NCBI RefSeq assembly: GCF_001939115.1
Contig: NZ_MQTZ01000014.1
Coordinates: forward strand, 1 to 33,570
Source: Leptolyngbya sp. 'hensonii'
GTDB taxonomy: Bacteria > Cyanobacteriota > Cyanobacteriia > GCF-001939115
Direction of reading: 5' to 3'
DNA length: 33,570 nt
The position numbers and the translations under genes were made by a program. The first letter of the stretch is position 1, and each line of letters opens with the position of its first letter. Under the pieces are notes generated by a model that was not told the origin of the DNA, made no database searches, and saw nothing but the letters and a program-made list of their open reading frames with translations. Below, piece by piece: positions 1,351-29,910 of the stretch.

Positions 1351-2799
1351 GTGATGGTAAGGCCTGAGAATCGACTGCTTTATCCGTTCAATGAGACAAC
1401 CACAATGGACCGAGAGCAGCAGCGCCTGAAAGTTATAGCCGATCTGGCACTTCTAGATGCAACCAGCATCGCAGTATTTGAAGAAGCGACCCAGATGGCC
1501 GCCCACCTGCTGGACATGCCAGTATGCACCCTGGGCATTCTTGATCAGGAGCGGGAGTGGCTCAAATCTGCGATCGGGCTCTCCAGATTGGGCGTGATGA
1601 ATGAGATTGCAACTTCTCGCCAAATTCCCCGACAGGACTCCTTCTCTGTCTCCATTGTTAACAGTCATCAGGCTCTGGTGATTGGAGATGCAGCAACCCA
1701 CCCCGACTTTGCCCACAGTGCTCTGGTGCATCGCTATCGGATTCGATCCTATCTGGGGGTTCCCCTGCTCAACTCTGCAGGCTATTGTCTGGGTACCCTG
1801 GCCGTCATGGATCTGGTCCCTCGTACGTTTACTTCCAGAGATATTGGGTGTCTGGAGTTGGTTGCCCGGTGGAGCATGAGTGAATTTGAGCGCGATCGTT
1901 TGACCCACCAGCAACCTGCAGACCCTCCACCGCAGACCCTCGACCAGCAACCTGCTTCAGTGCCCCGTTCTGCAGAAGAGGCTCTCCCAGAGCAGTCTCG
2001 CCTGAATCTTATGCGGGTCAGGCTGCTGACCCATCTGACTCAGGAATTGAGAACCCCCCTGACCTCAGTCCTGGGCATGACCAGTGTGCTCCACCGCGAA
2101 GTCTATGGCCCTCTCTCTGATAAGCAAAAAGAATATCTGGACATCGTTTACCAGAGCAGTCAATACCTGCTTTCCCTGGTGAATGAGATTGTTGAACTTG
2201 GAGCACCGGATACCCATGGAGAAAATCTGACCCTCACTTCTGTGGATCTGGAGATGCTCTGCCAGCAGGTCCTCAATACTCTAGAACAGGCAGCCAGTCG
2301 TCGAGAACAGCAGATTCGGCTCTCGATCGAACCAGGCCCTCGAATCTGGACTTTAGACAAAAACAAGGTACGGCAAATTCTGTATCACCTGATCTTCAGT
2401 CTGGTGCAATCCTCGAATGCGGGTAGCGTGATTCGCCTCCATGTTTCACGCAAACAACAGCGGTTACAACTTTCAATCTGGGTTTCCAATCCCTGGCTGG
2501 GAGAGAGCTTACCCCTGTCAGACCTCTATGGTTTGAACGAAACTGCGGAGAATGACAATCTTCGCGATCGAGAATGGCAGTCCGACTCTTCTCCATCACC
2601 GCACCCAGCGGCCATGGGTTCCGCACCCGAGAAATCCCCAGCTTCCCTAGAAGCATCTCGCGATGATCTGGGTCTGGTGCTTAGCCGTCAGTTAGTCGAA
2701 ATGCATGGGGGGCAAATTTCACTGCAGGGTTCGGTTGAAGTGGGATATCGCTATGTCATCAGCCTGCCTCAAGTGACCCAGGCCGAGATGAGTAGCTAA
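1351..2799 (+). CDS. GAF protein with degenerate histidine-kinase core (probable pseudokinase)
   Basis: A protein of 482 residues (GTG 1351) or 481 (ATG 1354); AGGAG about 1339-1343 serves either. A GAF domain covers about residues 35-180, followed by a Pro/Gln-rich linker, a HisKA-like helix pair (222-282) and an ATPase-like region (295-475). The H-box reads LTQELRTPL, so Gln231 stands where the phosphorylated His should be. The N-box equivalent reads ILYHLIFSLVQ and lacks the Asn; the G2 box reads DDLGLVLS and lacks the usual GTG; about 60 polar residues are inserted between them. These losses argue against autophosphorylation and ATP binding. The overall fold, including the KQKEYLDI and QYLLSLVNEI helices, is well kept, suggesting selection for a non-catalytic role such as dimer partner or protein binding. 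The GAF has no conserved bilin cysteine. No membrane segment is visible. Confidence 0.85.
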   Translation: MMVRPENRLLYPFNETTTMDREQQRLKVIADLALLDATSIAVFEEATQMAAHLLDMPVCTLGILDQEREWLKSAIGLSRLGVMNEIATSRQIPRQDSFSVSIVNSHQALVIGDAATHPDFAHSALVHRYRIRSYLGVPLLNSAGYCLGTLAVMDLVPRTFTSRDIGCLELVARWSMSEFERDRLTHQQPADPPPQTLDQQPASVPRSAEEALPEQSRLNLMRVRLLTHLTQELRTPLTSVLGMTSVLHREVYGPLSDKQKEYLDIVYQSSQYLLSLVNEIVELGAPDTHGENLTLTSVDLEMLCQQVLNTLEQAASRREQQIRLSIEPGPRIWTLDKNKVRQILYHLIFSLVQSSNAGSVIRLHVSRKQQRLQLSIWVSNPWLGESLPLSDLYGLNETAENDNLRDREWQSDSSPSPHPAAMGSAPEKSPASLEASRDDLGLVLSRQLVEMHGGQISLQGSVEVGYRYVISLPQVTQAEMSS

Positions 2800-8093: not shown

Positions 8094-8660
8094 ATGACCA
8101 CCGTACCCGGAACGCTAACCATTATGGCCACCCCCATTCCCGATGTCCTCTTAATCGAGCCAAGAGTTTTTGGAGACGAGCGTGGTTTTTTTCTGGAAAG
8201 CTATAATGCCAAAGTCTGGCAGGCTGAAACAGGCCTCGCCGTCCCCTTTGTCCAGGATAATCATTCCCGATCGGCCCGCCATGTTCTCCGGGGGTTGCAT
8301 TACCAGATCCAGCAGCCCCAGGGTAAACTGATTCGGGTCATTCTCGGCTCCATCTTCGATGTTGCAGTGGATTTGCGCCGCAGCAGCATCACCTTTGGAC
8401 AATGGGTTGGGGCCACTTTAACTGCAGACAATAAGCAGCAATTGTGGATCCCACCAGGATTTGCCCATGGATTTCTGGTGCTATCCGACTTTGCAGAAGT
8501 CCTGTATAAAACGACCGAGTACTACGCCCCCGAGCATGAGCGATCGCTCCTCTGGAACGATCCCGATCTGGCGATCGACTGGCCTTTAGAAGAAGACCCT
8601 ATCCTCTCCAGTAAGGACAGGGCCGGGATTTCCCTCCAAGGTGCAGAAGTTTACCCTTAG
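8094..8660 (+). CDS. rfbC: dTDP-4-dehydrorhamnose 3,5-epimerase
   Basis: A 188-residue cupin epimerase. Features are [13 protein letters not shown], the active-site His69 in RGLHYQ, the substrate-binding [29 protein letters not shown], and catalytic Tyr138 in LYKTTEYY. It epimerises C3 and C5 of dTDP-4-keto-6-deoxyglucose. Start ATG 8094 has an AGAGGA ribosome site at 8081-8086 overlapping the rfbA stop. The final enzyme of the pathway (RfbD reductase) is not in this window, so it must be encoded elsewhere or the intermediate has another use. Its stop codon overlaps that of the convergent leuC: TTAG at 8657-8660 serves as both stops. Confidence 0.95.
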
Positions 8661-10060
8661 AGCAGCTCTCGCACATCGGAGACCACACCGGTCACCGCTG
8701 CCGCAACGACCATTGCCGGACTCATCAGTAAGGTACGGCCTGAGGCAGATCCCTGGCGACCCTTAAAATTCCGATTCGAAGAGGACGCACTCAACTGGCG
8801 ACCCTGCAGTTTGTCAGGATTCATCGCCAGACACATGGAACAACCCGGTTCGCGCCATTCAAACCCGGCAGCCTGAAAGATCTGGTCCAGTCCTTCAGCT
8901 TCGGCCTGTTGCTTGACCCGTTCCGAACCGGGCACAATGAATGCCTTCACCCCAGGTGCCACCTGCCTTCCCTGGGCAAAGCGAGCCGCTTCCCGCAGAT
9001 CACTGATGCGACCATTAGTACAACTGCCTACAAAGCAGACATCCACCTTCAAACCCTGAATTGAGGCACCCGGAGTTAAATCCATGTAAGAGTAGGCTTC
9101 TGCCGCGATCGCCTGCTCCTCTTCGGGCAGAGTCTCTGGCGTCGGCACCGGCTCATCCACGGCAATACCTTGACCGGGGGTAATCCCCCAGGTAACGGTG
9201 GGGGCAATATCAGCGGCATCAAACACGACCCGATCGTCATAAACCGCATCCCCATCACTGCGTAGTTGAGTCCACCAGGCGACAGCTCGCTCCCAGTCTG
9301 CACCCTTAGGGGCAAATTCCCGCCCCTGCAGATAATCAAAAGTGATCGGATCGGGATTGACATACCCACAACGGGCACCGCCCTCGATCGCCATGTTACA
9401 GACGGTCATCCGGGCTTCCATATCCATCTGGTCGAAGGTGGTGCCTGCAAATTCATAGGCATACCCCACCCCACCTTTCACCCCCAGTTTCCGGATGATA
9501 TGGAGAATCACATCCTTCGCATAAACACCGGGCCGCAGAGTTCCATCCACTTCTATGCGCCGGACTTTCAACTTGGCCAGAGCCAGGGTCTGACTGGCCA
9601 AGACATCCCGCACCTGGCTAGTGCCAATGCCAAAAGCGATCGCTCCAAACGCCCCATGGGTTGAGGTATGGCTATCGCCACAGGCAACCGTCATCCCCGG
9701 TTGGGTCAACCCCAATTCCGGCGCAATCACATGGACAATCCCCTGGCGGCCCGAACCAATGTTGTAGAAGGTAATGCCATAATCTTTGCAATTGCGCTCC
9801 AGCGCTTGAATCATCTCCTCAGCGAGGTGATCAAGAAACGGACGGGCCTGGTTTTCTGTCGGGACAATGTGATCAACGGTTGCGATCGTGCGCTCCGGGA
9901 ACAGCACCTGCAGATTCCGCTCTCGCAGGGCTGCAAAAGCCTGAGGGCTGGTCACTTCGTGAATCAGATGCAATCCAATCAAGAGCTGCGTCTGACCAGA
10001 AGGTAAAATTCCAACCGTATGCAAATCCCAAACCTTATCGAACAACGTTCCCTTGCTCAT
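8657..10060 (-). CDS. leuC: 3-isopropylmalate dehydratase, large subunit
   Basis: A 467-residue aconitase-family protein. The three 4Fe-4S ligands are Cys347 (VGSCTNGR), Cys407 and Cys410 (PGCSMC), in the same numbering as the E. coli enzyme. [23 protein letters not shown] and [18 protein letters not shown] are further signatures. With the small subunit LeuD, not present here, it isomerises 2- to 3-isopropylmalate in leucine synthesis. A purine-rich AAGGGCAG just before ATG 10060 can serve as ribosome site. The gene is separated from the upstream kinase by 87 bases on the same strand and is probably transcribed alone or by readthrough. It converges on rfbC with a 4-base stop overlap, leaving no room for a terminator between them. 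Confidence 0.97.
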
Positions 10061-10147: not shown

Positions 10148-12580
10148 TTACTCTAATGGTTTAAAGGGCAACTGCAGGATAAAGCAAGTTTGCTGATTAG
10201 CACTTTCCACCTCGATCGAGCCGCCCAATTGGGCTGCCATTTTCTTCACCAGGGCCAGCCCCAACCCCGTCCCCCCATGTCGCCAGGGATCACTACTGGG
10301 AATCCGATAGAACTTATCAAAAATATGGGCCAGCTCACTCGTAGGCAGCTCAATTCCACTATTACAAACACTAATTTGCAGCCAGACAGACGACAAAGAG
10401 ATCGCCCTAGAAGAACAAGGTAGGGTCGCGAGAGGACACTGTCCAGTTTCTGTGCTTTCCGGTTCCGACATCCCTGAGGGCTCTCGTTCGCGGGAACCCA
10501 ATCCCATCTCATCCAGCACTCTGACCGCAACGGTAATTTGCTCTCCTGCAGGCGTATATTTACAGGCATTATTCAAAAGCTCAGTCAGAATCCGTTCCAG
10601 GTATTTCAAGTCTGTCGTCAATAGGGGCAAGTCAGGTGGAATCTGGATCTGCAGGTGTTGTCGTTGACTGCCTGTTCGCTCCTCAAAAGGCTCTGCGATC
10701 GCGGGTATCCAAACCCGCAGGTCAACCTCCATCAGCATGATCGGCTCCACCTGAGCTTCCAGACGGGACAGATCCAGCAAATCATCGATCAGACTAATTT
10801 CTCGCTGGCACTCACTGTGCAAAATCTGAAAGTATTCAGCCGCCTGCTCACTAGACTCCAGAAGACCTGTTTTTTGCAAAATAACTCTCAGCATTTGAGC
10901 GGCCATTTTGATGCTGGACATTGGGGTCCGCAATTCATGGGAAATCGTACTGAGAAAGTCATCCTTCAAGCGGTGCAACCGTTCCAGCTCTCGCACCTGG
11001 GCCTGAGCAGCCTGATAGAGGCGGGACTGGCGCAGGGCGATCGCACATTGGTTCGCCACCTGCTGCACCAGTCGAATTTCCTGGTCGTTGAACCAGTCCT
11101 GCTGGTATCGAAATAGCCACATGTCTCCCAGAGACCCCTGATCATCGAACAGAGGGGAGGCCAGGATTGTATATTTGTGGACATTCAGTCGAGCACAGTC
11201 AGCCTTCAACGGGCAGAAGTGGCTGTACTGTCCTCGGAAAAGATGCTGGTAAATTGCTGGATCCGTCGATTCTGACAGCAGAAATTCCTGTCCCTTCTGG
11301 GGCAACAGGGCAGCATTATATTCATGCCGAATGGTTGAAGTCGTCAAGGCTGCATTGTAAAGCCCTACATCACAACAGAGAACCTGCAGACCAGCCCCCA
11401 ATTCGTCCACTGCCGTTTGCAAAATCTGGTTTTCGTCCAGGCTATCCCGCACCTTATCGGTAATCCGCTTTAGCAAAGCCTCGAAGTGAAGTGCCTGCCG
11501 CAATTCCTGCGTCCGCTGCTGCACCTGTTGCTCTAGCGCAATATTAAATTGCTGAATTTGTTGATAGAGCTGAGACTGATGGATCGCAACTTCCAGCGAA
11601 GTCGCCAGTTGTTTCAGCACCTCAATTTCCCAGGCTTGCCAGTGCCGAGGAGCCGAACAGTGGTGAGCAATCAACAATCCCCACAGGTGGGCTCCCTGAA
11701 GAATCGGGACAATCAGATTAGCCCTAACTTGAAAGTTCGCCAGCAAGGCCCGATGACAGGGAGCAATCTGAGCCCCATCCAGATCATCAATCGTCGTCAC
11801 CCGCCCCTGACGATAGGGTTCGACATAGGACTGCTGAAAACAAGGATCAACCACATGACTGCCCAAAATCGGCGACCAGTCTGGCGCTACCGATTCTGTC
11901 ACCACATCCCCACTCCAGTCTGGCGCAAAGCAGAAAATAATCACCCGATCGGTCTGCAGCAGTTGGCGCACTTCTGCAACGGTCGTATTCAGAATCTCCT
12001 TCAAATGCAGGGATTGGCGGATCCGCTGGACAATACTCATCAAGAGTTGTTCCCGCTCTATGCGCAGATGCAGCGCTGCTTCGGTCAGTTTCTGTTCAGT
12101 GACATCCCGAGCATTGATCACCATCCCTCGAACCACGGGTTCTGCCAGCAGATTGGTCAGAATGACCTCCAGAACTTTCCAGCAGCCATTTCTGTGTTTA
12201 ATCCGCCATTCCACACGAGACAGGCTCAACCCAGGCGACTGGATTGCCCGTTCCAGGGTTTGCGTGATCAGGGAACTGTCTTCCGGATGCACTAACTCGA
12301 AGACAGGTTTACCGACCACTTCCACAGGGGCATAGCCCAAAACCTTTTCTGCAGAAGAGCTGACAGATTGAACAACACCCTGAGTATCGAGAATGACAAC
12401 AATATCAGCGGAATTTTGAGTCAAAGCCCGAAAGCGGCGATCGTCCCTCGCTTCAACCGCTGTGGGAGACAGATCTCCATGCAGCTCCTGCTCAGCCGCA
12501 TCATGCGGGTTAGCACGATCTCGGATCACATCGGAGCAGGGCTGGAAGGGGTCCATAGGATGGTCAGCGGATGATATCAT
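10148..12580 (-). CDS. PAS-GAF-GAF histidine kinase with DXCF-type cyanobacteriochrome GAF
   Basis: An 810-residue soluble sensor kinase. A PAS domain (about 48-165) is followed by a first GAF (about 185-335), a short coiled linker, a second GAF (365-520), HisKA with His548 in SHELRTPM, and a HATPase domain (650-808) with Asn671 in LLNNACKYTP and GGTGLGLALV. The first GAF carries DPCF at 245-248 and PCH with Cys275-His276, followed by FQVRANLIVPIL and LWGLLIAHHCS. The two cysteines are 28 residues apart, as recalled for the DXCF cyanobacteriochrome TePixJ. In that class the first Cys reversibly attacks bilin C10 and the second holds the chromophore, giving blue/green-type photocycles. A polar insert of about 45 residues interrupts the ATPase domain after residue 690, and the G1 box has NSG in place of DxG. 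The kinase appears active by its His, Asn and G2 motifs. No partner response regulator is adjacent. Confidence 0.92.
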   Translation of the reverse strand: MISSADHPMDPFQPCSDVIRDRANPHDAAEQELHGDLSPTAVEARDDRRFRALTQNSADIVVILDTQGVVQSVSSSAEKVLGYAPVEVVGKPVFELVHPEDSSLITQTLERAIQSPGLSLSRVEWRIKHRNGCWKVLEVILTNLLAEPVVRGMVINARDVTEQKLTEAALHLRIEREQLLMSIVQRIRQSLHLKEILNTTVAEVRQLLQTDRVIIFCFAPDWSGDVVTESVAPDWSPILGSHVVDPCFQQSYVEPYRQGRVTTIDDLDGAQIAPCHRALLANFQVRANLIVPILQGAHLWGLLIAHHCSAPRHWQAWEIEVLKQLATSLEVAIHQSQLYQQIQQFNIALEQQVQQRTQELRQALHFEALLKRITDKVRDSLDENQILQTAVDELGAGLQVLCCDVGLYNAALTTSTIRHEYNAALLPQKGQEFLLSESTDPAIYQHLFRGQYSHFCPLKADCARLNVHKYTILASPLFDDQGSLGDMWLFRYQQDWFNDQEIRLVQQVANQCAIALRQSRLYQAAQAQVRELERLHRLKDDFLSTISHELRTPMSSIKMAAQMLRVILQKTGLLESSEQAAEYFQILHSECQREISLIDDLLDLSRLEAQVEPIMLMEVDLRVWIPAIAEPFEERTGSQRQHLQIQIPPDLPLLTTDLKYLERILTELLNNACKYTPAGEQITVAVRVLDEMGLGSREREPSGMSEPESTETGQCPLATLPCSSRAISLSSVWLQISVCNSGIELPTSELAHIFDKFYRIPSSDPWRHGGTGLGLALVKKMAAQLGGSIEVESANQQTCFILQLPFKPLE

Positions 12581-12843: not shown

Positions 12844-15576
12844 ATGACTGCAACCCTTGCCAACCTGCCCAGCCAATATGAAGCCGCCACCACTGAAGCC
12901 AAATGGCAACGAATTTGGGAGGAGCAGGAAGTATTCAAAGCCCATCCAGAAAAGGGAGGCCAACCCTACTGCATTGTGATTCCGCCGCCCAATGTGACGG
13001 GCAGTCTCCACATGGGCCATGCCTTTAATACCGCCCTGATGGATGTGCTGGTGCGCTACCACCGGATGCAGGGCGATAACACCCTCTGCCTGCCGGGAAC
13101 TGACCACGCCAGTATTGCCGTCAGCACCATTCTGGATCGAGAGTTGCGGGCTCAGGGAAAACGACGACAGGATGTGGGCCGAGAGGCTTACCTGAAACGG
13201 GCCTGGGAGTGGAAAGCCCAATCCGAGGGGACGATCGTCGATCAACTCCGCCGTCTCGGCCTGTCGGCAGACTGGTCTCGGGAACGGTTCACTTTGGATG
13301 AGGGGCTGTCGAAGGCCGTGCTGGAAGCGTTCGTCAAACTCTACCAGGAAGGACTGATCTACCGGGGCAATTATCTGGTGAATTGGTGCCCAGCCAGCCA
13401 ATCCGCCGTTTCTGACCTGGAAGTGGAAAGTCAGGAAGTTAACGGCCACCTCTGGCACTTCCGCTATCCCCTCACAGATGGGTCTGGTTTCGTAGAAGTG
13501 GCCACTACCCGTCCCGAAACCATGCTGGGAGATACGGCGGTTGCCGTGAACCCCCAGGACGATCGCTACCAGCACCTGATCGGCAAAACCCTGACCCTAC
13601 CAATCATGAATCGGGAAATCCCCATCATCGGGGATGATCTGGTCGATCGGGAGTTTGGCACGGGCTGCGTCAAAGTCACCCCAGCCCATGACCCCAATGA
13701 CTTTGAAATGGGCTTGCGTCATCAACTCCCCTTTATCAACATCATGAATAAGGACGGCACCCTGAACGAGCATGCCGGTCCTTTTGCTGGGCAAGACCGC
13801 TTCGTGGCCCGCAAGAATGTAGTGGCCCGACTGGAAGCGGATGGGGTACTGGTGAGGGTGGAGGATTACCGCCATACCGTGCCCTATAGTGATCGGGGCA
13901 AAGTGCCAGTGGAACCCCTCCTGTCCACCCAATGGTTTGTCAAAATCGAGTCCCTGGCCGCTCGAGCCTTAACGTCCCTGGACCAGGACAATTCCCCTTA
14001 CTTCGTTCCAGAAAAATGGCTGAAGGTCTACCGGGATTGGCTGGTGCGCTTGAAGGATTGGTGCATCTCACGGCAACTCTGGTGGGGCCATCAAATTCCA
14101 GCCTGGTATGCCATCAGTGAAACGGGGGGGCAGATTACGGATGAAACTCCCTTTGTGGTCGCCCACCATGAGGCAGAAGCGCGGGAACTGGCGATCGCTC
14201 AATTTGGTCCTGACGTGCAACTGGAGCAGGATCCGGATGTGCTGGATACCTGGTTCTCGTCTGGTCTGTGGCCTTTCTCCACCCTGGGCTGGCCAGGGCA
14301 AACGGAAGACCTGACCCTTTACTTCCCAACCACGGTGCTCGTCACCGGGTTTGACATCATCTTCTTCTGGGTGGCCCGCATGACCATGATGGCCAGTCAC
14401 TTCACAGGCCAAATCCCCTTTCGGGATGTATATATCCATGGCCTGGTGCGGGATGAGAACAATAAGAAAATGTCGAAATCGGCGAATAACGGCATTGATC
14501 CCCTGCTGCTGATTAACAAGTATGGGGCCGATGCCCTGCGCTACACCCTGATCCGGGAAGTCACCGGAGCCGGTCAGGACATTCGCATGGAGTACAATCG
14601 CAAAACGGATGAATCCACATCGGTGGAAGCCTCCCGCAATTTCACCAACAAACTGTGGAACGCCTCCCGGTTTGTCATGATGAATCTGGATGGACAAACG
14701 CCAGCGCAGTTGGGGTCGCCCAATCCAGATACCCTGGATCTCAGTGATCGCTGGATTCTGTCTCGCTTCCATCAGGTTGCTCAGCAGACCTGTGACCAGA
14801 TTGAGCACTATGGCCTGGGAGAAGCCGCTAAAGGTCTATATGAGTTCACCTGGGGCGATTTTTGCGACTGGTACATTGAACTGGTCAAGTCGCGCCTGCA
14901 GGGAGACGACCCGACCTCTAGAAAAGCCGTGCAGCAAACCCTGGCCTTGGTCCTGGAGGGCATTTTGAAGCTACTGCACCCCTTCATGCCCCACATTACT
15001 GAAGAAATCTGGCATACCCTGACCCAGGCCAGTCCTGATCGCTATCTCGCCCTACAATCCTATCCCCAGGCAGAGGCCACCCTGATCGACCCGACCCTGG
15101 AGCGACAGTTTGAGCTCCTATTCGATACCATTCGCACCCTGCGAAACCTGCGGGCAGAAGCCGATATCAAACCAGGGACGAAGATTCGAGCCATTCTGCA
15201 AAGCGAGGCAGAAGACGATCGCACCCTCCTGGCCGCCAGTCAGGCTTATATGCAGGATCTGGCCAAGGTGGAGAATCTGACGATCGTGGCAGCGGCTGAC
15301 ATCCAGGAACAGGCGATTGTGGGGGTAACTGGCACCATCCAGGTGATTGTGCCCCTGGCTGGCGTTGTTGATGTGGCCGCCCTCAAAGCCAAGGTGGAGC
15401 GGGATTTGAAGAAAGTTGAAGGTGAGATTCAGGCCCTGACCGCCCGTTTGGGCAATGAGGGGTTCATCAGTCGGGCTCCCAAAGAGGTGGTGCAGAGTGC
15501 CCAGGATGCTCTGGCTGAAGCTCAGAAGCAGGCTGAGATTCTGCGCGATCGGCTGCAACAGCTTGATAATTTGTAG
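12844..15576 (+). CDS. valS: valyl-tRNA synthetase
   Basis: A 910-residue class I synthetase. The HIGH motif appears as HMGH at 56-59 within [14 protein letters not shown], and KMSKS at 542-546. [11 protein letters not shown], the editing-domain block [21 protein letters not shown] and [15 protein letters not shown], and [11 protein letters not shown] are present, and the C-terminus ends in the ValS-type coiled coil (about 850-910). It charges tRNA-Val and hydrolyses mischarged Thr in the editing domain. Length is normal. The gene ends six bases from the convergent C39-type peptidase gene. Long open frames on its opposite strand (for example 12805-13575 and 14068-14808) are shadows of its codon bias. 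Confidence 0.98.
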
Positions 15577-25401: not shown

Positions 25402-27972
25402 TTAGATGGATGGAACCGATGTGAAACGGATATCCTGCTCCAGGAGCACTGCTGCAGCAGTATTCGACAAAGGTTTAGCAAAGAAATATCCCTGGCCATA
25501 TTCACAGTTGAGTCTCTCCAGGCGATCTCGCTGAATCGCAGTCTCAATTCCTTCTGCCACCACATCCATGCCCAGGGTATGACCCAACACAATAATGGTC
25601 TGAACGATCGCTGCGTCTCCTGTTGCATCAATTTGATTGACAAAGGAGCGATCGACTTTGAGGGTATCGATCGGGAGGCGATGCAGATGACTGAGGGAAG
25701 AATAACCAGTGCCAAAATCATCCAGGCTAAGGCGTACATTCAACGCCTTCAAGCGCTGAAGTAGCACGATCGTGGCTTCAATATCTGACATGGCCATACT
25801 CTCTGTAATTTCCAGCTTCAGGCTACAGCCATCCAACCCGGTAGACCTGAGGGTCTGCTCCACATGTTCGACCAAACCCGGCTGGGTAAATTGCTGACTG
25901 GACAGATTAACGCTAACGACCAGGGGAGGATTGGGCTGAAATTGAGCCTGCCAGAGACTGATTTGATTGCAGGCAGCATGAATAATCCATTGCCCCAGCG
26001 GCACAATTAACCCAATTTCTTCAGCAACAGGAATAAATTCACTGGGCGGAATAAAACCTTCCTGGGGATGAGGCCAGCGCAACAACGCCTCAAAACCCGT
26101 TACTCTACCCGATTTCAAAACGACGATCGGCTGATAATGGAGCTGAAACTCCTGCTGCTCCAGGGCCCGGTGCAGCTCAGTTTCCAGTTGCAGGCGACGC
26201 ACAATCTGGGTCCGCATACCCACAGCAAAGACCTCGTGCCGGGATTTTCCTGCTGCTTTGGCCCGATACATCGCCGTATGAGCATCCCGAAGCAAGTCAT
26301 CCGCCTTACAGTCCTGGCCCATAGGGTTGAGGGCAATCCCCATACTGGCACTGGTAAAAATTTCCTGCCGCTGAATCAGGAAAGGAATGGTCATCTCTTC
26401 CGTAATTTGTTCAATCAGGTGAGGCAGTTCTGTGGCATCCTGGACTCCCGGTAGAGCAACAGCAAATTCATCCCCCCCCACCCGAGCCAGCAACGTAGAT
26501 TTTGGGAGGCAGGCTTTTAACCGCTGGCTGGCCTTGATTAACAGTTGATCACCAGCTTGGTGACCCATACTATCGTTAATCGCCTTAAATCGATCGAGCC
26601 CAATCAGTACAACGGCCAGCATAGAAGCTTGAGCCTGTTGCCCATCCCGTTCAATCGTCCCTTCCACCAGGTGCTTACCGGCTCGACGAGAATGGCGGAT
26701 CATCCAATGCAATCGCTGCAAGAAAAAAGCTCGATTCGGTAACCCGGAGAGCGCATCATGAAAGGCGTTATACAGCAGTTTGTAGGCCACAACCCCTGCT
26801 CCCGTAATCATCAGGGTTAGTGCTGGGGCAACCACAGGAACCCAACCGGACCGGGTAAAGATTATAAAGGAAAGGCATCCCAGACTGCCGAGAGCCACGA
26901 TTGTGACCAGTCCCAGAGCCACCGGGTGCTGTAATCGCCAGACCAGAATGCCACCGACTAAAGCCCAACCCCACATCCAAAGCAATTCCGCCCATTGCGG
27001 CCAGAACCAGAACAGCGGCTGTCCATCCAGAACTGTACTTAAAATCTGGCTGATCAGTTGGGCATGAATCGTGACCCCCGTCGCCATGTCGGTATTTTCT
27101 CGATCAGCTGCGCTGTAGGGTGTCGTGAACAAATCTTTGAGGCTGGGAGCTGTACTCCCAATCAGCACAATTTTGCCTCTGACCAGAGCTGGGTCAAAAT
27201 CCTGATTCAGCACCTGAGTCACCGAAACTTGGGGAGCCACTTGATGTCGCGATCGATAGGCCAGGAGAATTTGGTACCCCGAATTATCAATCTTCTGATA
27301 TCCACCAGAAGTTGGGTCCAAAGCTGTGAATGTGGTGTTGCCAATATAGAGGGCATGATCATCTGCTTTGAACGGATACTCACGTTCATCCAGATATTGC
27401 AGACTGATCCGCAGGGAAAAGGAGTACAGATCAGTTCTTTCCGCAGAGGTAAATAAAAAATTTCGTCGTATAACGTTATCGGGATCGTGGACCAGATCAT
27501 TAAAGCCAATGCGCTCTATGGGAAGACCTGGAATTGCCGGAACCCCATCCCCATTAGGATCACGTAACTTCTCAATGGTGATCACATTGGGAGCTTGCAG
27601 TTGCTGCAACAGTTCCTGGTGGCCTGGAGGTTGAGGAATATTACGGTACATGTCCAGACCGATCACTTTAGGCTGGTGCACCTGCAGATTTCGGATCAAC
27701 TTTGCCAGAGTTTCATCTTTCAGGGGCCACTGATTTTGGTTAATGTCTGATTCGGTCAGAGCGACAATCAAGAGACGGGAGTCAATCCCTTTGTCTGGCT
27801 GCGATCGCACCATTTGATCGTAGGCCAGTAGCTCTGCAGATTGCAGCATTCCCAATTGCTTGCCCCCTGCCACCAGACCAGTGACCAGCAGGCTAATGGC
27901 TATGATAGAGGGTCTGACCCCAGATACAACAGCCTGAAGATGACTCCACTTGAAGCGACGTTCTGTAGTCAT
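25402..27972 (-). CDS. CHASE2-sensor GGDEF/EAL protein (cyclic di-GMP turnover)
   Basis: An 856-residue membrane protein from ATG 27972 (an in-frame TTG at 28026 is possible). One N-terminal membrane helix (about 23-42) is followed by a periplasmic CHASE2 domain (about 45-310), three closely spaced helices (about 325-400), GGDEF (405-560) and EAL (580-835). GGDEF is intact (VGGDEFAVAL), but the RxxD inhibitory site is absent (PKST). The EAL domain keeps EALLRW, the Asn of NLSSQQF, Glu of LEITESM, DDFGTGYSSL, LKVDRSFV and VVAEGIET, so phosphodiesterase activity is likely. The protein could both make and break cyclic di-GMP, and the missing I-site suggests no product inhibition of the cyclase. 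CHASE2 senses an unknown extracytoplasmic signal. The gene is divergent from a small exported protein across about 250 bases. Confidence 0.93.
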   Translation of the reverse strand: MTTERRFKWSHLQAVVSGVRPSIIAISLLVTGLVAGGKQLGMLQSAELLAYDQMVRSQPDKGIDSRLLIVALTESDINQNQWPLKDETLAKLIRNLQVHQPKVIGLDMYRNIPQPPGHQELLQQLQAPNVITIEKLRDPNGDGVPAIPGLPIERIGFNDLVHDPDNVIRRNFLFTSAERTDLYSFSLRISLQYLDEREYPFKADDHALYIGNTTFTALDPTSGGYQKIDNSGYQILLAYRSRHQVAPQVSVTQVLNQDFDPALVRGKIVLIGSTAPSLKDLFTTPYSAADRENTDMATGVTIHAQLISQILSTVLDGQPLFWFWPQWAELLWMWGWALVGGILVWRLQHPVALGLVTIVALGSLGCLSFIIFTRSGWVPVVAPALTLMITGAGVVAYKLLYNAFHDALSGLPNRAFFLQRLHWMIRHSRRAGKHLVEGTIERDGQQAQASMLAVVLIGLDRFKAINDSMGHQAGDQLLIKASQRLKACLPKSTLLARVGGDEFAVALPGVQDATELPHLIEQITEEMTIPFLIQRQEIFTSASMGIALNPMGQDCKADDLLRDAHTAMYRAKAAGKSRHEVFAVGMRTQIVRRLQLETELHRALEQQEFQLHYQPIVVLKSGRVTGFEALLRWPHPQEGFIPPSEFIPVAEEIGLIVPLGQWIIHAACNQISLWQAQFQPNPPLVVSVNLSSQQFTQPGLVEHVEQTLRSTGLDGCSLKLEITESMAMSDIEATIVLLQRLKALNVRLSLDDFGTGYSSLSHLHRLPIDTLKVDRSFVNQIDATGDAAIVQTIIVLGHTLGMDVVAEGIETAIQRDRLERLNCEYGQGYFFAKPLSNTAAAVLLEQDIRFTSVPSI

Positions 27973-28178
27973 ACGCAGCAAAAACTTGAACGATCTGGTA
28001 TTTTGCGGAATACCAGCGGCAACCAATGTATTTGTATTAACACTAGCAGAGCCTTTATTTCCATTCGAGTCTTCATAAAGTTATCCGGAAGGTTCAGTAG
28101 CTCCCCCAGGACACAACTGCCAAGCTAGGGCGATTCTAATTTTTTCTATATACGTAATTTAGCGATTGTAAGAATGCT

Positions 28179-28750: not shown

Positions 28751-29452
28751 TTATGGTGGCAGTTCAGGAAGATCATAATGAAGCACAGTAGCGTTACGCT
28801 GAACCGTCTCCAGCATATCTTTGAGTTGGTTGAGCTGTACCTGTAGTGTATCTACCTGCTTACCCGCTTCATATTTACGCCTGAGCGCAGCCCGAGCCAG
28901 ATCTTCTCGCCCCTGTTGCAAGGCCGAACGAGCTACTCGCTGCCAACTATCCCGATCGTTTTTTGCCTGTTCATAGCGGGGTTGAATTTCTTGCCGAGCC
29001 GCCGCAATATTCAGCCATGCCTGACGAACCGTTTCAGGCACCTGCTCCTGATCAGCCGTAGTGATGGCCTGCCGTACCATATCATACAGGTCATAGCCAC
29101 CGACATGCCCCCGACCTAGTAGATAATCACGCACTTGCAAACTTTCATGCCGCCCGGTTTTACACCAGTTTGCGAAGTGCTCACAGTTATTGAAAATCAG
29201 GTTGTACTTCTGTTCACCCAGACGGCTCTCAGCCCTGTGAATAACCACATCAGGCACATAGCTGACATCATACTGTTTAACATAGAGTGAACGGTTACTG
29301 GAAAACACCGCCATGGAAGTGCGGGCGATCGTTTCCTTGCCCTTCTGATAGTGAATGACCGTGCCATCGCCACAATCAATCCCATGGTGTTCGTACAGAC
29401 CAGGAACATTGTAAAAATCTCGGATAGTGTAGATCTGGTCTCCTCTAGCCAT
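28751..29452 (-). CDS. LRAT-like NlpC/P60-fold protein with PspA/Vipp1-like coiled-coil tail
   Basis: A 233-residue protein. Residues 1-125 match the LRAT/H-REV107 group: MARGDQIYTIRDFYNVPGLYEHHGIDCGDGTVIHY (read in parts) contributes His22/23 and His34, and NNCEHFANWC contributes the catalytic Cys90. This circularly permuted papain fold acts as an acyltransferase, phospholipase or protease. Residues 140-225 are a charged coiled coil with AKNDRDSWQRVARSALQQGREDLARAALRRK, in parts very like helices of PspA/Vipp1 (typically AEADxWYxRAQLALQKGDEDLAREAL). Such helices bind membranes and polymerise. The fusion suggests an enzyme acting on lipids or proteins at a membrane surface. The FHA gene ends 11 bases upstream, so the pair is one transcription unit. 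No signal peptide or membrane helix. Confidence 0.85.
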   Translation of the reverse strand: MARGDQIYTIRDFYNVPGLYEHHGIDCGDGTVIHYQKGKETIARTSMAVFSSNRSLYVKQYDVSYVPDVVIHRAESRLGEQKYNLIFNNCEHFANWCKTGRHESLQVRDYLLGRGHVGGYDLYDMVRQAITTADQEQVPETVRQAWLNIAAARQEIQPRYEQAKNDRDSWQRVARSALQQGREDLARAALRRKYEAGKQVDTLQVQLNQLKDMLETVQRNATVLHYDLPELPP

Positions 29453-29463
29453 AATTGCAGGAG

Positions 29464-29910
29464 CTAGTCTTCCCGACGGGTTACATTTTCCTCAGGAGGA
29501 GCCGTTTGAGGCCGGGTGAGGAATGTGGGCGGCACCTTAAATGCTTCGCCTGTGCTGGATGGACTGGGTCGTTTCTCTGCATTGGCCTTGGTTTTCACGT
29601 CATGGGGTGCACTGCCAATTAAGATTTGAATCTTAGGACCGGAAGTGCCCAAACGAATCACCATCCCATCCAACACCTTAGTTTGGGTAATCCGTTCCCC
29701 ATTGACAAAAGTTCCATTCGTGCCGCGAGAAATCACCTCCCAGCCAAAAGTCTGTCGCTGCAACTCCACATGCAATCGAGAGACAACCGCACTGTGAACA
29801 ACAACCTCATTTTCCTTAGCTCGCCCAATACGGACCACAGATTCACTCTCAAAGGTCCAGCTTTGGACGGGAATGGGTTGGGTTGGATGTAGCAAGTTCA
29901 AGATAATCAC
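29464..29910 (-). CDS. FHA-domain protein
   Basis: A 148-residue protein from a GTG start at 29910. An FHA domain spans about residues 5-100 with the phosphothreonine-binding set: Gly29-Arg30 (RIGRAKENEVVVHSAVVSRLH, in parts), Ser44-Arg45-His47, and the loop TNGTFVNG with Asn65 and Asn70. A Pro-rich, disordered tail follows. FHA domains read phosphothreonine made by Ser/Thr kinases; no such kinase is in the window. The LRAT-like gene begins 11 bases downstream, a spacing that predicts translational coupling. The upstream aminopeptidase gene ends 79 bases away on the same strand. I see no transmembrane segment. Confidence 0.9.
   Translation of the reverse strand: MIILNLLHPTQPIPVQSWTFESESVVRIGRAKENEVVVHSAVVSRLHVELQRQTFGWEVISRGTNGTFVNGERITQTKVLDGMVIRLGTSGPKIQILIGSAPHDVKTKANAEKRPSPSSTGEAFKVPPTFLTRPQTAPPEENVTRRED

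Follow-up and report, generated by a model that had tools for sequence, protein, structure and literature searches.

Background

DpxA of Fremyella diplosiphon, which we take to be a DXCF cyanobacteriochrome kinase, is one of the described systems with which the present locus may be compared. It is a teal/yellow sensor, absorbing at 495 and 567 nm, and represses phycoerythrin (PMC4937213). The typical DXCF protein converts PCB to PVB by isomerisation and has a blue/green photocycle (PMC11284453), and Phe residues on the beta2 strand and on helix alpha4 are used by teal-DXCF and red/green domains (PMC5240096). In TePixJ, the propionate contacts are His498 and Trp499 (PMC6955287). Hik2/CSK, a GAF kinase of cyanobacteria, senses redox state; its GAF domain has a conserved cysteine and holds a [3Fe-4S] cluster (PMC6949291).

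The locus described here encodes a histidine kinase with a predicted DXCF sensor, followed by a cysteine-rich GAF domain and by a kinase region with an altered G1 box. The kinase half is considered to be of greater weight than the photoreceptor half.

Gene organization

The window (the whole stretch of DNA that was analysed, 33,570 nucleotides) is one contig of a 5.94 Mb genome. A single gene encoding 810 residues runs on the minus strand from the ATG at 12580 to the stop at 10148; since the stop-to-stop frame comprises only 812 codons, the start can shift by no more than two codons. Pfam domains are found in the order PAS (residues 49-112), GAF (193-333), a second GAF stretch, HisKA (539-609) and HATPase_c, in agreement with the PAS-GAF-GAF histidine kinase architecture proposed by the first-pass annotation, which had left the strand unstated.

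10148-12580, minus strand: whole gene, PAS-GAF-GAF-HisKA-HATPase_c protein of 810 aa (ORF, translation, Pfam)
12086-12448, minus strand: PAS domain, about residues 45-165 (Pfam PAS, PAS_3, PAS_4 and PAS_9)

The gene is flanked by an aconitase-family gene (8657-10060, minus strand) and by a divergently oriented valyl-tRNA synthetase gene (12844-15576, plus strand). No response regulator is present among the adjacent genes, and the kinase is therefore classified as an orphan. The scan of the region upstream of the gene revealed no promoter or terminator, and the plasmid search produced merely distant matches, below 60% identity. A scan of genome contigs returned mainly generic kinases. The named relatives sharing the half composed of the second GAF domain (GAF2) and the kinase are cyanobacteria.

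The first GAF domain

The features of the first GAF domain (GAF1) are the following:

11546-12058, minus strand: GAF1, DXCF cyanobacteriochrome domain, about residues 175-345 (PDB matches, TePixJ alignment, tree, AF2 model with VIA-align)
11840-11842, minus strand: Cys247, second Cys, within the DXCF motif (DPCF), equivalent to TePixJ Cys494 and predicted to form the C10 thioether (alignment)
11756-11758, minus strand: Cys275 (PCH), canonical bilin-attachment Cys, equivalent to TePixJ Cys522 and followed by His276 (alignment)

The domain had been annotated as a DXCF cyanobacteriochrome on the basis of two bilin-type cysteines, DPCF Cys247 and PCH Cys275, set 28 residues apart as in TePixJ. Both residues were found exactly at these positions, and the PDB chain of TePixJ shows the same spacing of 28. 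The alignment to TePixJ, proposed as a check, was performed with a reference sequence identical, letter for letter, to PDB 2M7U, 4FOF and 6P58 over the stretch. It extends without gaps over 141 residues at 42% identity and matches both bilin cysteines, with Cys275 at the chromophore-attachment column and not displaced from it.

A PDB search with GAF1 matched solved cyanobacteriochrome-type GAF domains with E-values from 1e-53 to 1e-27, the top match being the dual-sensor kinase 6OAP (E 8e-53), which has DQYF. A DXC[FL] motif and the canonical Cys occupy the same columns in many paralogues and relatives, and many of the 42 matches to GAF1 in its own genome show the two-cysteine pattern. Given the strong matches to solved domains and the recurrence of the same columns, the pattern is not attributable to chance.

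AF2 models were produced for GAF1 and GAF2; they are based on few aligned sequences (6 and 2, respectively), with mean pLDDT of 62 and 63, and the fold alone was used. In the GAF1 model (pLDDT 62.7) Cys247 lies just ahead of one helix and Cys275 starts the next. Comparison by VIA-align with cyanobacteriochrome and phytochrome GAF domains gave Z scores between 14.8 and 13.4, and values of about 14-15 were obtained with Slr1393g3, JSC1g3 and TePixJ. In a tree of 101 GAF domains, GAF1 is placed among the DXCF domains, next to the weakly supported neighbours L091, a paralogue with DPCF/PCYR, and L130; TePixJ is not a resolved sister, and the forks are open. The second Cys was gained or lost at least 7 times on this tree.

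GAF1 is a GAF domain of the cyanobacteriochrome type, with a canonical Cys followed by His (Cys275-His276) and a second Cys in DPCF. Its assignment to the DXCF cyanobacteriochromes is thus supported by alignment, fold and tree, bilin binding itself being predicted; attachment of the bile pigment through two cysteines is very probable, judging from the sequence. The photoreceptor half is ordinary, one more member of a known photoreceptor family, and as one more predicted DXCF sensor GAF1 would be of use mainly for colour-tuning rules.

Colour tuning

Two positions associated with colour were compared with reference domains, the NpR6012g4 letters being taken from the PDB alignment:

11903-11905, minus strand: Val226, at the beta2 position of the "trapped-twist" Phe; TePixJ likewise has Val, while NpR6012g4, AnPixJg2 and Slr1393g3 have Phe (alignment)
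11732-11734, minus strand: Phe283, at the alpha4 position where the red/green references also carry Phe and TePixJ carries Leu (alignment)

The prediction of blue/green sensing, also made at first pass, is plausible. It is favoured by the TePixJ-like Val226 and by the full DPCF/CH pair, whereas Phe283 is kept and other DXCF colours exist. In addition, Ser251-Tyr252 are found in GAF1 where TePixJ has His498-Trp499. If a bilin is bound, a blue/green pair is the likelier outcome, by a modest preponderance, on the residues aligned here.

GAF1 might instead bind a bilin with a different colour response, either because a stable second linkage does not form or because its tuning is to teal, yellow or orange; other lineages of DXCF sensors provide examples. 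The retained Phe at alpha4, the absorption of DpxA (PMC4937213) and the behaviour of close relatives, which gain or lose the second Cys (the 7 changes counted on the tree), all point in this direction. Teal tuning is however disfavoured, because the beta2 position is occupied by Val226, as in TePixJ, so that the beta2 Phe is absent; the DPCF/CH pair is, moreover, as complete as in TePixJ. A colour response other than blue/green is possible, and the less probable outcome.

The kinase half

In GHKL ATPases the N6 of adenine is contacted by the Asp of the G1 box; replacing this Asp by Asn is a classic way of disabling Hsp90. The relevant features of the kinase half are the following:

10754-10966, minus strand: HisKA dimerisation and phosphoacceptor domain, residues 539-609, with His548 at 10937-10939 (Pfam PF00512; His in 118/118 relatives)
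10160-10633, minus strand: HATPase_c ATP-binding domain, about residues 650-807, with Asn671 at 10568-10570 (Pfam PF02518)
10361-10363, minus strand: Asn740, replacing the G1-box Asp (alignment to WalK/VicK-type chains; 117/118 relatives)
10349-10351, minus strand: Glu744, replacing the second Gly of DxGxG (alignment)

The kinase had been regarded as intact on account of His548 and Asn671. Both residues are in place, and the G2 box GxGLGL is kept (GGTGLGL from Gly769), but the claim fails at the G1 box, which reads N-S-G-I-E at residues 740-744 against the D-x-G-x-G of WalK-type kinases. A low-complexity insert, longer than in most relatives seen, separates the N box from the G1 box (residues about 684-730; window about 10391-10531, minus strand).

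The conservation of these positions was evaluated on 118 GAF2-kinase relatives, mostly from the 43 genomes, out of 242 cyanobacterial ones, with a strong match; they were chosen by similarity to the window protein, and the figures describe its family rather than all kinases. His548, Glu667 and Asn671 are invariant throughout the set. The Asp column contains Asn in 117 of the 118 sequences, the sole exception resulting from an alignment shift (K-N-Q-A-E), and in 72 of 73 once the set is clustered at 60% identity; most relatives have Glu in place of the second Gly. Among 150 HATPase_c domains from the genome that contains the window, the G1 Asp is found in 133 and Asn in 17, 11 of which have N-x-G-x-E. 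Some of these N-x-G-x-E kinases, for instance L313 (C36), L333 (C12) and L314 (C41:9602), match the window protein over the kinase part only and do not carry GAF2, so that, as far as the sequences indicate, the altered G1 box probably extends beyond GAF2-bearing kinases. A narrow search of the open-access literature retrieved nothing on point about G1-box substitutions or an Asn-G1 kinase class.

With Asn740 and Glu744, the kinase half could be something other than an ordinary ATP-dependent kinase: it might bind ATP weakly, prefer another nucleotide, or serve chiefly as a phosphatase or as a partner in binding. The near-complete replacement of the Asp within the family, the Glu found at the second Gly in most members, the retention of Asp in most ATPase domains of the same genome and the Hsp90 precedent would agree with this. 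Set against them is the strong conservation of the His, N box, F box and G2 box across the class, which argues for selection on catalysis, and an Asn at this position may still serve as acceptor for the N6 hydrogen bond. Loss of ordinary kinase activity is considered unlikely. The Asn-for-Asp class, of which this genome has roughly twelve copies, would represent either a working exception to the rule by which active kinases are recognized or a large set of proteins of altered function.

The second GAF domain and bilin supply

GAF2 is rich in cysteines and carries none of the cyanobacteriochrome motifs:

11006-11488, minus strand: GAF2, about residues 365-525 (Pfam GAF in 2 stretches; 118-member alignment; low-confidence AF2 model with GAF fold)
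11372-11374, minus strand: Cys403, Cys in 116/118 relatives (family alignment)
11213-11215, minus strand: Cys456, in a QFC motif, Cys in 109/118 relatives (family alignment)
11156-11158, minus strand: Ser475, Cys in 102/118 relatives (family alignment)
11045-11047, minus strand: Cys512, Cys in 114/118 relatives (family alignment)

All four cysteines are present in 89 of the 118 relatives, the window protein having three of them, and in the strand region no residue other than Gly485 is better conserved than Cys403. The sequence has no strong relative in the PDB (best E 2e-4); the best matches of the model are phytochrome-type and other GAF domains, at Z of about 9-10, a likeness of fold only. 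By analogy with Hik2/CSK, the conserved cysteines suggest a functional thiol or metal site, and GAF2 may provide a redox or metal input; such a site would bring redox sensing and light sensing together in a single protein. Conserved cysteines can be structural too, as is shown by Cys673, in the N box, which is kept in 101 of the 118 relatives.

The GAF domain preceding GAF2 carries the canonical Cys in 57 of the 118 relatives, 42 of which also have the second Cys, these counts including a few doubtful alignments. Light input is thus not a fixed property of the GAF2-kinase module, about half of the relatives having no canonical-Cys GAF before GAF2. Ferredoxin-dependent bilin reductases are encoded by four genes of the genome. 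The copy at C51 reaches 362 bits with the PcyA profile (cut-off 206), and by its score the copy at C17:123212 is a PebB. From the presence of pcyA, phycocyanobilin should be available. That GAF1 no longer binds bilin, sensing being left to GAF2 alone, is very improbable: both cysteines are absent from some homologous GAFs preceding the same module, but GAF1 keeps both of them, the adjoining His and the surrounding DPCF and VRANLIVPIL sequences, in a genome with pcyA.

Proposed mechanism

Taken as a whole, the protein is fairly likely to be a soluble orphan light-sensing histidine kinase, with a bilin on GAF1 and a signal transmitted via GAF2 to HisKA/HATPase_c. Phycocyanobilin would be bound covalently at Cys275 and probably isomerised by GAF1 to phycoviolobilin. 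In the dark, Cys247 would probably add to C10, giving a blue-absorbing form; light would break the Cys247-C10 bond, giving a green-absorbing form. From GAF1 the change would travel by a helical linker and GAF2 to the HisKA dimer, where it would alter the phosphorylation of His548 by ATP bound to HATPase_c, with a second input probably coming from the conserved cysteines of GAF2 (redox or metal). The sequences themselves give the order of the domains, the two bilin cysteines at their proper columns, the catalytic His and Asn, a pcyA gene and the Asn740/Glu744 substitutions; we infer that a bilin is bound, its colour, the way in which the signal runs, the use of ATP, a role of GAF2 as input and a partner response regulator. 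The replacement of His498-Trp499 of TePixJ by Ser251-Tyr252, the retained alpha4 Phe and the Asn in place of the G1 Asp count against this explanation, as do the other colours of DXCF-type sensors (PMC5240096, PMC4937213) and the many relatives whose GAF2 is not preceded by a canonical-Cys GAF.

A broader proposal is put forward tentatively, and with low expectation: the protein might belong to a class of histidine kinases, widespread in cyanobacteria, with a fixed N-x-G-x-E box and a four-cysteine GAF as last sensor, in which light is combined with redox or metal signals and the handling of nucleotides departs from the standard (ATP bound weakly, a bias towards phosphatase activity, or another nucleotide).

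Other genes in the window

A 482-aa GAF-HisKA protein, which looks like a pseudo-histidine kinase, is encoded at 1351-2799 (plus strand), beside GUN4 at 446-991. Its phosphoacceptor His is replaced by Gln (TQELRTP) and its ATP-binding motifs are eroded; the His is absent from most of its relatives (mostly Gln), and in several of them a GUN4-like gene lies within the retrieved flank. A CHASE2-GGDEF-EAL cyclic-di-GMP enzyme is encoded at 25402-28026 (minus strand). At 28751-29452 (minus strand) an LRAT-domain protein with a PspA/Snf7-like coiled-coil tail adjoins an FHA protein at 29464-29910.

Comparison with known systems

Membership in HrmK (NCBIfam NF038297) was rejected, the score being 114.6 bits against a cut-off of 725; the profile aligns over GAF2 and HisKA, residues 340-680. 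The Fe-S GAF kinases of the Hik2/CSK type resemble GAF2 by analogy only, GAF2 being known here from its conserved Cys columns alone. The dual-sensor histidine kinase PPHK (6OAP, 6OAQ and 6OB8) is the best PDB match to GAF1, at 52% identity, and likewise has a bilin GAF in a histidine kinase, but it shows DQYF, with no second Cys at the DXCF position. The blue/green DXCF domain of TePixJ (3VV4, 4GLQ and 2M7V) shares with GAF1 the DPCF and CH motifs at the same columns and spacing, 42% identity and the beta2 Val. It differs in having Leu at the alpha4 position of Phe283 and His498-Trp499 at that of Ser251-Tyr252, and in being part of a methyl-accepting protein, whereas GAF1 belongs to a histidine kinase.
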